From Halobaculum sp. CBA1158 (GTDB taxonomy: Archaea > Halobacteriota > Halobacteria > Halobacteriales > Haloferacaceae): 64,000 nt of DNA. The notes beneath the pieces were generated by a model. It did not search any database and was not told where the DNA came from. It was given only the letters and a program-made list of their open reading frames with translations. Made by a program: the position numbers and the translations under genes. Below, one piece after another: positions 7,469 through 11,687 of this stretch (position 1 is the stretch's first letter; each line of letters begins with the position of its first letter). The stretch covers positions 2,046,001 through 2,110,000 of the forward strand of contig NZ_CP090371.1 of NCBI RefSeq assembly GCF_021431925.1, written 5' to 3'.

Positions 7469-8188
7469 TTACTGCTGGGACTCGACGAACTCCCGGATGT
7501 CCGCTGCCGACGATCCCTCGATCGGATCGGTTCCCCACCGGAACGCCGGTAACGCCTCGCCCTCCACGCCGCTGTCGCGGCCGAGTTGTCGGTCGGAGTA
7601 CGTCTGGTTGCGTCGCCGCCGCGTCTCGGCGGCCGCGACGACCGCGTCGGCGTCAATACCGACCTCGGTCGCGAGGTCGCGAAGCAGGTCGTAGGAGTAG
7701 TCGGGAGCCGACTCGACGAGCAGTTCGTGAAACCGCCACGCGTCCGCGCGGGAGCCGCGGGCGCGGACCTCGAACAGCGCGCTGGGAAGCACTACCGACC
7801 ACTCGTTGATCGGGATCGGGAACATGAGTAGGGTCGGGCGGGCGGCCTCGTCGGCGACGAGGTCCGAGAGTTTCGGGTACTCCTCACGCCACCACCGGAT
7901 CGACGGCTCGTGTGCGTAGTCGAAGTACACCGCGACGAGGGTGCCGCCGCCGGCGTAGATCTGCTCCACGCCGGCGTAGGGGGTGCGAGTGCCCTCGCGG
8001 TGGCTGAATGTCTCTGTCGCTTCGGCCGTGGTGAACTCGTCGGTGTGCCAGCCACCGCGAGGTTCGTCGGCGTCGCCGTCGCCGCGCAGCCAGCCGAGGC
8101 AGCCCGAGGTCCCGGCGAGCGTCGCGGTGCTCGCGGTCGCGAGGAAGCGTCTGCGCGTTCGCGTTGGACAACGGTCGGACTCGGTCAT
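7469..8188 (-). CDS. Tat lipoprotein with DsbA/thioredoxin-like fold lacking the CXXC motif
   Basis: 239 residues. The N-terminus carries a twin-arginine motif (TRRRFLATAS) and a lipobox ending TSGC with Cys30 as the lipid-modified residue, so it is exported folded and anchored outside the membrane. The body begins with LVAVYFDYA followed by HEPSIRWW, which aligns with the start of DsbA-like thioredoxin folds where a CPYC-type motif normally follows FDYA. Here that site is H-E-P-S, and Cys6 and Cys30 are the only cysteines in the protein. FPIPINEWS and the GVEGEALPAF segment resemble the rest of the fold. It is therefore likely a redox-inactive relative with a binding or chaperone role (inference). 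Its ATG overlaps the stop of the CAP-domain gene by an ATGA, so the two are translationally coupled. Confidence 0.75.
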   Translation of the reverse strand: MTESDRCPTRTRRRFLATASTATLAGTSGCLGWLRGDGDADEPRGGWHTDEFTTAEATETFSHREGTRTPYAGVEQIYAGGGTLVAVYFDYAHEPSIRWWREEYPKLSDLVADEAARPTLLMFPIPINEWSVVLPSALFEVRARGSRADAWRFHELLVESAPDYSYDLLRDLATEVGIDADAVVAAAETRRRRNQTYSDRQLGRDSGVEGEALPAFRWGTDPIEGSSAADIREFVESQQ

Positions 8189-8844
8189 TCTGTGTTATCC
8201 TCCGTCGGGTCCGCATCACAGAGGTTCATTGTAGCGTAGGCACGGCCGTCCTTGGCGACGTAGATGCCGATACCGACGGTAGTCATCTCTGGGTGGATCA
8301 TCGCAGCATTGTGTTCTGGGGATTGTATAAACCCGCGTAGATAAGCCTCCGCAAGTTCGTTTTCTGTCTCAGATTGGCCGTTTTTCCAATACATTCCGGC
8401 GATATTCTCCCGACTAATGTAACAATCGTACTCTGCTTCACGAAGCCTGTCCGAGAATGTTTCACCCTCGGGCGAGGTGTGGTTGAAATAATTCCGGGTA
8501 GCCATATCGTATGAGTGATGGCGAGCTATCATAGCGAGGCGGGGATCAAAGGTTAGGGAACCAGCATTATCTACAGATCTATATTCATTTAGTTTTTTAA
8601 ATAAAATGTTTTCAACTAATGTGACATTTAAATCAGTACGTTGTGTCTTATTCTGCAAAGGAGAAGGTGTTATTATGTTCTCATCAGCCTGTTGATGGCC
8701 AAATTTAGGCGATTCAGGCGTCTCATTATGAAATACTACCGGTTCCTGGCTACGAACGATTGGTTCCGGGTTAGATCCGACAGAAGATAGACATCCAGTC
8801 AGTAGGATCATTACAACGAGTGCGGTTGCATACCCTCTATTCAT
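8185..8844 (-). CDS. CAP/SCP-domain (PR-1-like) lipoprotein
   Basis: 219 residues. A hydrophobic N-terminus ends in LLTGC (Cys18), a Sec-type lipobox. After a low-complexity linker, the region from about 80 to 210 is a CAP domain: FDPRLAMIARHHSYDMA, NYFNHTSPEGETFSDRL, ENIAGMYW, a SPEHNAAMIHPEMTTVGIGI block and a closing TMNLC. The paired His and Glu residues of the CAP cleft appear present. CAP proteins are secreted and bind ligands or, in some cases, cut proteins; the role here is unknown. GC content is clearly lower than in neighbouring housekeeping genes. The start overlaps a 17-codon leader ORF, and the stop overlaps the DsbA-like gene. Confidence 0.85.
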   Translation of the reverse strand: MNRGYATALVVMILLTGCLSSVGSNPEPIVRSQEPVVFHNETPESPKFGHQQADENIITPSPLQNKTQRTDLNVTLVENILFKKLNEYRSVDNAGSLTFDPRLAMIARHHSYDMATRNYFNHTSPEGETFSDRLREAEYDCYISRENIAGMYWKNGQSETENELAEAYLRGFIQSPEHNAAMIHPEMTTVGIGIYVAKDGRAYATMNLCDADPTEDNTE

Positions 8845-8939: not shown

Positions 8940-11687
8940 TTAGCACATGACTGTGTCGTGGTGACTTTTATCCGATCCACACCGAACTTCGACTGTCCGA
9001 AGGGTCCCTGAGATATACGAACCAGTCTCTGGCTTCTTGAGTGAGTGCTCCGTTCTCACGGTACGTCCTTCACGCTCCCACAGCCATTCAGTCCAGGATT
9101 CCGTTTCCGCAAAGGATTCCATGGTGACGGTGAATTCGCGCTCGCTCGCGTACTCGTGGTAGTGAACTGTCCGGGTCCGTTCGACTTCAGTCAGGTACAG
9201 GTAGTCGGTGTCGTAGTAGGTGTAGCCACTATGGTCGTGGCCGGTGTACCAGACCTCGGTGTCGTATCTCCAGTTGGAGCACTCCCGTGAGAACCCGCCG
9301 TACGGACTCGGATTGAGATCCCAGTTCGTGCACGTCCTCGTGGTTCGGGTGTGTCGCTCACGGTCGTGATCATGGCCGTCGCCGACGACCACACGCTCGG
9401 TTCTAGTTTCACCAGTATAGCTCCATCCCGGGCGCTGATACTTGCTCGAAAGCCACCGATATTTGTCTTCGTAGTACGTCCGTTCCTCGGTCCGAACGTT
9501 CCGTTCCACGAGCTGCCAGTCGTCTCCTGCTCCGTCCGGATCCGACTGCCTGACGCGAGTGATCCGGCGAGATCGCTGCTCAACGCTTGTCCCCGTCGAT
9601 ACCCAGTTGTCCCCGAGCGTCGATGGCCGTCCAGCATCGGCCCTTACAGATACTGTTCGTCCTGTGAAGTACGTCCCGGAGTCGTGGACCGATCTCTTGA
9701 ACCAGCCTTCTCCTGTAGGTTGTTCATTGGATATGACACGTTCAATTGTATTACTGGTGGTCTCGTACCAGTACTCCGTGTAGGTCTTTGGTCGAACGTT
9801 GATGTCGACCGTTTTCAACGCCTCACCGTTCGGGCCTTGTGTCGAGATCAGTCTCGCCTTGTACGTTCCAGGATCGGAGTACGTATGAGATATATCGACA
9901 TTCACGCCGGCTGGTGTCCCTGAACCGCGAGTGATGGATCCGTCACCAAAAACGAGCCGGTAGTTCTGATGCGACCCGACTGTGAAAACGACACGTTCTC
10001 CTGGTTCGATCTCGAGACTGCCTTCCTGCGAGGTCCCCCCAGACTCCGTCGCGTGAAACACGATATGGTCATGTGTCTGTACTGAATGGACGCGGCTTAT
10101 CCACTTCTGTTCGCCTTGGTCACCATCTGCATCAACAGCCGAGAGCGAAACTTCCCTCGTGACCTTGCCGCCGCGCTCAGAGACGAACATGTGACGGATC
10201 TCTGTCTCTCGATCGCCGGAGAACCGACCGAGTGTATCAACGACAACCGCGGGATCGGTATCGTTTACTCGCCACGTTGCACGGACGATCTTCTGCTCTT
10301 CATGAGTGATTGTGGCGAGGAATTCGTAGGTTCCGAGTTCAACAGAGTCAGTTCCTGATGTCTGCGTACTGGAATCTGGGTCGTACGCAGACCTAATTGG
10401 AGAGATTTTTGGAACCGATCCACCAGGGAGGGATTCGATCGAATCGATAACTTTTGTCTCCTTCACCGCGGTCACGGTGTTCCCCTCGTCGTCCGTAACC
10501 GTCGCCGAGACTTCCACCGTGTCCCCGAGCATCCCGTCGATCCCGACGTTATTCACGAACCGATTCGCTTCTCGCTCCAACTGCGTCTGTCCCGGATCCC
10601 AACTGATCGTCAACTCTCCGCCGTCCGGATCGTACGCCTCCAGCGTGTACTCCTGTGTGCTTCCCACAGTCGCCGTGTCCGGTCCCTCGATCGAAACCAC
10701 CGGCGGACCCTCGTCGTACACTTCGACGGTCTTCGTCGCAGTCGTTCGCGCACCCTCGTCGTCGACGACGACGCCGCGAAGAGTGTAGGTCCCGATCTCC
10801 GAGAAGCCACATTCGACGACCGCACCCGTCTCGGAGCGATCGGGCCACAGTCGTCGAACGACGGTTCCGTCGGGGTCGTCGCCTCGAAGGACGAACGTCG
10901 CTTCGTGTCCGGACGCGACGCGGTCCGGCCCCTCGATCCTGGCAGTCGGTTCCTGGTTCGCCGGATCGACGGTCCCCGATCCGTCATCGGTGCCGTCGGT
11001 CGAGTCGGCCGCGCGAACGCGAACAGACTTCCTGAACGTGGCGGTCGCGCCGTCGTCGTCGGTAACGCGGACGCTGAAGGCGAACGTCTCGCCCGCGGGA
11101 AGATCGACGGTACGGTGGACCTCGCGACTCGACCGCCCGTCCGACCACGCGTACGACACGATCTCCCCGTCGGGATCGTACACGTTCGCCGTGAACGTCG
11201 CGGACTCCCCGCTGACTACGGTGTCCGGTCCGCCGATCCGGCCGGTCGGGGGTTCGTTTCGGGGCTCACTCGGGGTCGAGTTCGGCTCCGTCGAGGGATC
11301 GGATCCGGTATCCTCGTCGGATTCGGCGGCGAGAACGTCGACGTACAGCGTGTCACTTCGAGAGGCACCATCGTCGTCAGTAACGGTCAGCGTGACCTCG
11401 TACCGACCGACGCCGTCGGCGATGAAGGTGGTCGACGGTGCGGTCGGGTCCGCCGGAGTCGTCGTCGTTCCGTCGGGCGTCCGGATCGACCACTCGTGAG
11501 CGACGAGCCGACCGTCGGGGTCGAGCGAGCCACCCCCGTCGAGCCACACCGTGGCTCCGTGTTCGACGCGCTGATCGAGGCCGGCGTCCGCGAGCGGCGG
11601 ATCGTTCGCCGGCACGGAGTCTCCGACCGCCGGCGGCACGCCCGCCACCACGAGAGCGAGGGCGAGCGCGACCGGGATGAGTCTCAT
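8940..11687 (-). CDS. Secreted PKD-repeat surface protein with unusual aromatic C-terminus
   Basis: 915 residues starting with a Sec signal peptide (MRLIPVALALALVVAG, cleaved near residue 22). Four PKD-type beta-sandwich repeats follow (about 30-118, 145-230, 245-325, 328-415), each with the Y/V-x-W-x-D-G and V-T-D-D-x-G elements of PKD domains. One or two further Ig-like segments follow to about 650. The last 230 residues are of a type I do not recognise: rich in Tyr, Trp, Arg and His, with repeated short motifs such as TRTERVV and YDTEVWYTGHDH. No C-terminal membrane anchor or sortase-like signal is visible. The DNA changes from GC-rich in the PKD half to markedly less GC-rich in the C-terminal half, as if two parts of different origin were joined. 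The start is supported by a TATA box 33 bases upstream. PKD proteins usually serve adhesion or display. Confidence 0.85.
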   Translation of the reverse strand: MRLIPVALALALVVAGVPPAVGDSVPANDPPLADAGLDQRVEHGATVWLDGGGSLDPDGRLVAHEWSIRTPDGTTTTPADPTAPSTTFIADGVGRYEVTLTVTDDDGASRSDTLYVDVLAAESDEDTGSDPSTEPNSTPSEPRNEPPTGRIGGPDTVVSGESATFTANVYDPDGEIVSYAWSDGRSSREVHRTVDLPAGETFAFSVRVTDDDGATATFRKSVRVRAADSTDGTDDGSGTVDPANQEPTARIEGPDRVASGHEATFVLRGDDPDGTVVRRLWPDRSETGAVVECGFSEIGTYTLRGVVVDDEGARTTATKTVEVYDEGPPVVSIEGPDTATVGSTQEYTLEAYDPDGGELTISWDPGQTQLEREANRFVNNVGIDGMLGDTVEVSATVTDDEGNTVTAVKETKVIDSIESLPGGSVPKISPIRSAYDPDSSTQTSGTDSVELGTYEFLATITHEEQKIVRATWRVNDTDPAVVVDTLGRFSGDRETEIRHMFVSERGGKVTREVSLSAVDADGDQGEQKWISRVHSVQTHDHIVFHATESGGTSQEGSLEIEPGERVVFTVGSHQNYRLVFGDGSITRGSGTPAGVNVDISHTYSDPGTYKARLISTQGPNGEALKTVDINVRPKTYTEYWYETTSNTIERVISNEQPTGEGWFKRSVHDSGTYFTGRTVSVRADAGRPSTLGDNWVSTGTSVEQRSRRITRVRQSDPDGAGDDWQLVERNVRTEERTYYEDKYRWLSSKYQRPGWSYTGETRTERVVVGDGHDHDRERHTRTTRTCTNWDLNPSPYGGFSRECSNWRYDTEVWYTGHDHSGYTYYDTDYLYLTEVERTRTVHYHEYASEREFTVTMESFAETESWTEWLWEREGRTVRTEHSLKKPETGSYISGTLRTVEVRCGSDKSHHDTVMC

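Follow-up and report, generated by a model that had tools for sequence, protein, structure and literature searches.

The 64,000-nucleotide window analysed here (Halobaculum sp. CBA1158, contig NZ_CP090371.1) encodes a lipoprotein which had been read, from the letters alone, as a DsbA-fold protein that has lost its redox motif. The question raised by this locus is what such a protein could be: a disulfide enzyme in decay, an enzyme with another chemistry, or a protein whose former active site now serves to bind a partner.

The HxxS protein and its fold

The gene (239 aa, 7469..8188) had been correctly located by this sequence-only reading, except that it lies on the minus strand; the plus-strand frame across 7469-8188 is interrupted by stops. 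Its assignment rests on the open reading frame, on 13 orthologs and on their dN/dS. The product begins with a Tat-type (twin-arginine) signal peptide and a lipobox (8099..8188, minus), the codon of the lipobox Cys30 being at 8099-8101 (minus). As judged from the protein and from its orthologs, in which the RR pair and the G-C of the lipobox are nearly invariant, it fits a putative haloarchaeal Tat lipoprotein, where a twin-arginine signal is followed by a lipobox Cys (rule for haloarchaea as given in PMC2945643). The only cysteines of the 239-aa protein are Cys7 and Cys30; the latter had been placed correctly, the former one residue too early, at position 6. As Cys7 is upstream of the twin-arginine signal core, the processed lipoprotein would retain only the lipid-carrying Cys30 and should be without a free thiol.

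Minus-strand translation bears out that HEPS follows FDYA where a CPxC is expected: residues 89-96 are FDYAHEPS, and HEPS itself (residues 93-96; 7901..7912, minus) stands at the place of the CxxC. Its outer two residues, His93 and Ser96, are invariant in 13/13 orthologs, while the inner ones vary, with E in 8, R in 3, K in 1 and D in 1 at position 94, and P in 9, E in 2 and A in 2 at position 95. In all the CxxC-type homologs examined, the two cysteines of the motif fall in the His93 and Ser96 columns, and not one ortholog has a CxxC. An HxxS common to all 13 orthologs, with variable inner residues, is due neither to chance nor to a local mutation; a sequencing error in the window is ruled out on the same grounds. 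The orthologs come from 11/11 Halobaculum genomes and, in a second genus (g16), from 2/3 of those searched. In a profile search of the class, the HxxS type was recovered in 12/391 genomes, belonging to 2/86 genera; the thirteenth ortholog genome, G058, is not among the matches listed. Within the family, 128/148 genomes show some match, many of them to the signal peptide alone.

Conservation extends beyond the motif. WWREEYP (residues 99-105; 7874..7894, minus), on the first helix past the motif, has its WWREE and Pro invariant in 13/13 orthologs, and RRRRNQ (residues 190-195; 7604..7621, minus) is invariant in 13/13 and absent in the aligned CxxC relatives. In the cis-proline-type loop (residues 212-219; 7532..7555, minus), Pro214 is invariant and is preceded in the 13 orthologs by Leu or Ile rather than by Thr; the consensus of this loop in DsbA is a small residue and V/T before the Pro (PMC13269488). 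His154 is invariant too. Invariant positions are enriched at the former active-site face, with 16/25 in residues 89-105 and 212-219 compared to 39/135 elsewhere between residues 80 and 239 (p 0.001 by Fisher's test, a value which is only indicative, as the segments were picked from the known fold layout after the alignment was seen).

An AlphaFold2 model was computed from a 30-row alignment in which CxxC relatives and orthologs were mixed. Its mean pLDDT is 76.7 overall; block means lie at 82-98 for residues 81 to 239, and confidence is low for the signal peptide and linker. The best structural match is BdbD (3eu3; Z 18.8, rmsd 2.1 over 165 residues, 20% identity), and the top ranks are occupied throughout by DsbA-type proteins, including MdbA (Foldseek and VIA-align 2); the copper-linked, DsbA-like ScsC proteins are also among the fold matches. 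The protein is thus clearly predicted to have the DsbA fold, a thioredoxin fold with a helical insertion, and the earlier assignment to a DsbA-like rather than an unrelated fold holds. A common fold by itself shows no function. At the sequence level, Pfam DSBA (PF01323) scores 17.6 bits, below its gathering cut-off of 25.6, and reaches E 1 in 6/13 orthologs (best E 0.0035); Thioredoxin_4 matches 2/13 (best E 2.3e-05). When profiles are compared, the HxxS profile matches the CxxC lipoproteins with a probability of 99.6 and E 1e-23, in an alignment that spans the signal peptide too. Sequence matches to solved structures were limited to two, with E 0.92 and 1.2, both to an unrelated enzyme, and were discarded.

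The fixed outer and free inner positions of the motif resemble those of a catalytic site and could speak for a new enzyme, in which His/Ser chemistry would stand in place of cysteine chemistry. In principle, GST kappa offers a precedent, with a DsbA-like fold and a non-Cys residue at the motif (PMC2757866). It is, however, a glutathione enzyme whose catalytic Ser comes first in the motif, whereas the HxxS protein is exported and has His first (13/13) and Ser last. Glutathione-type cofactors would moreover be improbable given the extracellular location, and no pathway enzyme genes lie nearby among the neighbours compared. We regard a new enzyme as quite unlikely.

Origin and age of the replacement

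The most likely family of origin is that of the haloarchaeal DsbA-like Tat lipoproteins with a CPHC or CGHC motif (L014-L030, L093-L107 and 59 more). They share with the HxxS protein the Tat signal, the lipobox, the DsbA fold, the Pro at the cis-Pro position and the domain length, with 24-32% identity between the HxxS protein and 17 aligned members. They differ from it in that CxxC and the TP of the cis-Pro loop are kept, and in that most of those in the tree have a second Cys pair; the HxxS proteins have instead HxxS, L/I-P and no second Cys pair. CxxC is retained in 90/90 distinct CxxC-type homologs, mostly as CPHC or CGHC, and TP is present in the 60/60 further ones. This count unites sets of 17, 15 and 60 loci, in which L100, a second copy of L099, and L142, which has the location of L105, were not counted separately; excluded from it were matches to the signal peptide only, such as L108, loci devoid of a DsbA-like ORF (L109-L111), and matches falling short of the motif or unfetched. 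A general loss of CxxC across the family, for which the sequence-only reading had suggested a check, is therefore ruled out, the loss being limited to one clade. L099 and L100 are identical CPHC DsbA-like genes located about 408 kb apart in genome G103 (contig C2, at 38 kb and 447 kb), and could correspond to a true duplication or to the end overlap of a circular contig.

A tree built from 45 domains places all 13 HxxS rows in a single clade (support 100/100), which groups with the CPHC paralogs of Halobaculum (support 95/85). With 4.9 changes per column, the stem of this clade is very long, and long-branch effects may bear on the exact point of attachment among these paralogs. The two non-Halobaculum HxxS rows nest within the Halobaculum ones, which may reflect a rooting artefact or a transfer. 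The second Cys pair is absent in the 8 Halobaculum CPHC paralogs and present in the 23 other CxxC-type lipoprotein rows, in agreement with the former being the closest relatives of the HxxS clade. CPHC paralogs are found in 8/11 Halobaculum genomes and are absent from the window's own genome; PF01323 is present in 11/11 genomes of the genus.

Among the 66 ortholog pairs, the 14 closest give a dN/dS of 0.18-0.30, and the median pN/pS over all 66 is 0.37. The single clade on a long stem, the CxxC kept elsewhere and the low dN/dS together show that HxxS is an old, selected replacement of CxxC and not decay. A functionless former oxidoreductase would be consistent with the mature window protein having no remaining cysteine, with a second copy of the gene being a stop-containing remnant in G087 and with the frame being broken in G032. 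The reading frame is, however, open in the other 12 orthologs, and invariance peaks at the former active site. The dN/dS of the closest pairs rules out pseudogene decay for the clade, so that this reading of the window protein is hardly credible; G032 and the G087 remnant may be exceptions. In G032, a change of frame separates the HxxS signal peptide from the remainder of the protein, a single event in an assembly of uncertain base quality. Decay is the usual fate of enzymes that lose their chemistry. In this case a fixed His/Ser pair took the place of the redox pair and was then maintained by selection across the whole genus.

The PKD-CAP-HxxS gene neighbourhood

On the minus strand of the window, a PKD surface protein gene is followed by a CAP lipoprotein gene and by the HxxS gene. 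The run is flanked on one side by a gene which we take, from its sequence, to be aroC, and on the other by presumed KorA-KorB genes. The CAP-domain lipoprotein gene (219 aa; 8185..8844, minus) was delimited from its Pfam match, its junction and an ortholog alignment. Its product is a member of the CAP superfamily (Pfam CAP, E 5.2e-18, 66.4 bits versus a cut-off of 21.1) and has two conserved Cys; membership of NCBIfam DalA was rejected (41.9 bits versus a cut-off of 200). The stop TGA of the CAP gene and the start ATG of the HxxS gene overlap as ATGA (8185-8188), which fits the co-translation proposed for the two.

The first gene of the run encodes a secreted PKD-domain surface protein (8940..11687, minus, 11687 being a chosen start), identified by Pfam PKD_4 (E 5.6e-33) and by synteny. 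Read by eye, it has a signal peptide and no obvious anchor, and would thus suit two lipoprotein partners. It ends in a C-terminal extension of about 280 aa (8940..9791, minus), for which no Pfam family scores above cut-off beyond the PKD domains. The extension contains four invariant Cys (codons at 9330-9332, 9279-9281, 8979-8981 and 8943-8945, minus), an invariant His, invariant His-Asp clusters and many His, Trp and Tyr (10 rows, alignment A4); all 12 extension-bearing rows have the four cysteines. A structure predicted from 10 sequences had a mean pLDDT of 42.6 and was not used. In G108 (L034:8112-8230) and G058 (L056:5297-5312), the PKD gene appears frame-shifted, with pieces in different frames, through a sequencing error or a real break.

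When the window is compared with 12 loci of 12 other genomes, the order PKD-CAP-HxxS is found in 12/12 genomes with an intact HxxS gene, G032 being the sole exception. Adjacency to aroC is not universal, this gene being about 18 kb distant in G016. The CAP and HxxS genes adjoin only PKD proteins bearing the four-Cys extension (12 genomes), and a search with the C-terminal half of the PKD protein retrieved 13/391 genomes, which are the 12 HxxS-bearing ones of the class profile search and G019. Three relatives are informative. In G032, the PKD reading frame stops before the Cys/His-rich part and the CAP gene is gone. In G019, a clean 629-aa PKD protein occupies the corresponding chromosomal site, between KorA and aroC, and ends just before the extension (L110:3685-5574), and neither a CAP nor an HxxS gene follows this short PKD gene, which suggests that the extension is gained or lost as a module. 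In G040, the stretch between aroC and KorA measures about 1 kb and contains no PKD, CAP or HxxS gene. These patterns indicate that, in a sample as small as this one, the extension, CAP and HxxS are present or lost jointly, the linkage consisting of few independent events (12 related genomes and the three relatives). A second, broken HxxS remnant with a stop is located between KorA and the PKD gene of G087 (L054:5750-6136), next to a large, presumably helicase-like ORF named by eye, and looks like a duplicated, decayed copy.

The composition of the extension raises the possibility that the HxxS protein binds a metal or small ligand, with His93 and for example His154, both invariant, holding a metal that would perhaps be loaded onto the extension, as by a metallochaperone. 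The four Cys and the His-Asp clusters of the partner are in keeping with this, as are the copper-linked ScsC proteins among the fold matches. One His and one Ser in a loop nevertheless make a poor metal site alone, and metal transport genes are not seen among the neighbours compared; we consider such a role unlikely.

The conserved cysteines of the CAP protein and of the extension could also make both of them substrates of a disulfide enzyme, for which the HxxS protein would hold them as an accessory subunit. The enzyme could be a CPHC lipoprotein, of the kind that most Halobaculum genomes encode, or a pair found in the window's genome, in which a CPYC DsbA-like protein adjoins an ORF that we take, from its sequence, to be DsbB-like. 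However, neither a gene fusion nor adjacency to redox genes is seen, and as the window's genome has no CPHC paralog, the CPHC lipoprotein cannot be the general partner, so that we hold an accessory subunit to be very unlikely. The CPYC/DsbB-like pair is likely the oxidising pair of this genome and is on another contig than the window (L048, G000 contig C3, 1017-3101, minus); the DsbA-like protein has a zinc-finger-like N-terminus, is preceded by a presumed CtaA-like ORF, named by eye, and is followed by the DsbB-like one. The same genome encodes what we take, from its sequence, to be a cytosolic FrnE-like protein.

Proposed role and comparison with known systems

With a probability of roughly one in two, we propose that the HxxS protein is a Tat-exported pseudo-oxidoreductase, which would bind the PKD extension and assemble or tether it without redox chemistry. 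This proposal builds on what was computed, namely the fold, the loss and replacement of CxxC, the age of this replacement, purifying selection, gene order and coordinated presence and loss; that oxidation has candidate enzymes of its own in this genome also speaks for it. The HxxS protein most likely goes back to the duplication of a normal haloarchaeal DsbA-like lipoprotein of the CPHC type, the redox centre of which would have been permanently swapped for the invariant His-x-x-Ser. The protein would be exported by the Tat route, hence already folded, and anchored via Cys30. The former active-site face, made up of the HxxS loop, the WWREE helix and the cis-Pro loop, would most likely be a non-covalent binding surface for an operon partner, above all the Cys/His-rich extension and perhaps CAP. 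The extension would thereby be helped to fold, assemble or remain at the cell surface with the CAP lipoprotein. Direct contact with the partner, the use of this face and the role as chaperone or tether are inferred from the computed results; the invariance of His and Ser would fit metal binding or catalysis equally well. The linkage with the PKD extension and CAP, together with purifying selection, strengthens the suggestion of the sequence-only reading that the protein is no oxidase but a chaperone or ligand-binding partner, and stops short of proving it. More doubtful is the further idea of a single surface complex made up of the extension and the two lipoproteins, CAP and HxxS, in which the redox-dead DsbA would be the private maturation factor of the extension and its old groove the docking or metal-loading site.

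Encoded in genomes that also have CPHC sister proteins, and next to a conserved candidate partner, the protein is well suited to studying how a disulfide enzyme can become one that binds. The locus also hints at a haloarchaeal surface module not described so far. In the open-access library searched, subscription papers and preprints being outside this scope, no DsbA-type HxxS lipoprotein of haloarchaea with conserved operon partners was found, nor a paper combining haloarchaea with thioredoxin-type DsbA lipoproteins or an HxxS motif with thioredoxin; among the papers listed on Dsb and thioredoxin-fold proteins, this variant is named in no title.

The protein belongs to the DsbA lineage by descent and fold, yet it is not a DsbA oxidase, since the defining CxxC was tested for and is absent. 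Its predicted fold is that of DsbA oxidases (PF01323) such as BdbD of Bacillus subtilis, but it lacks the motif cysteines and falls below the Pfam cut-off. Redox-inactive relatives of disulfide enzymes are already known: ERp29 is a relative of PDI acting as a chaperone or escort (according to PMC7506106), and ERp27 is a further one, by the title of a cited reference. Both are alike in being redox-inactive, and unlike in being proteins of the eukaryotic ER, from the PDI rather than the DsbA line, with no client in an operon. The YjbH adaptor, which brings Spx to ClpXP, is cytosolic and uses a DsbA-like fold in a protein-binding role. The YjbH-Spx complex is itself among the fold matches (Z 12.5), and YjbH keeps its CxxC in Bacillus and Listeria (PMC7889195).
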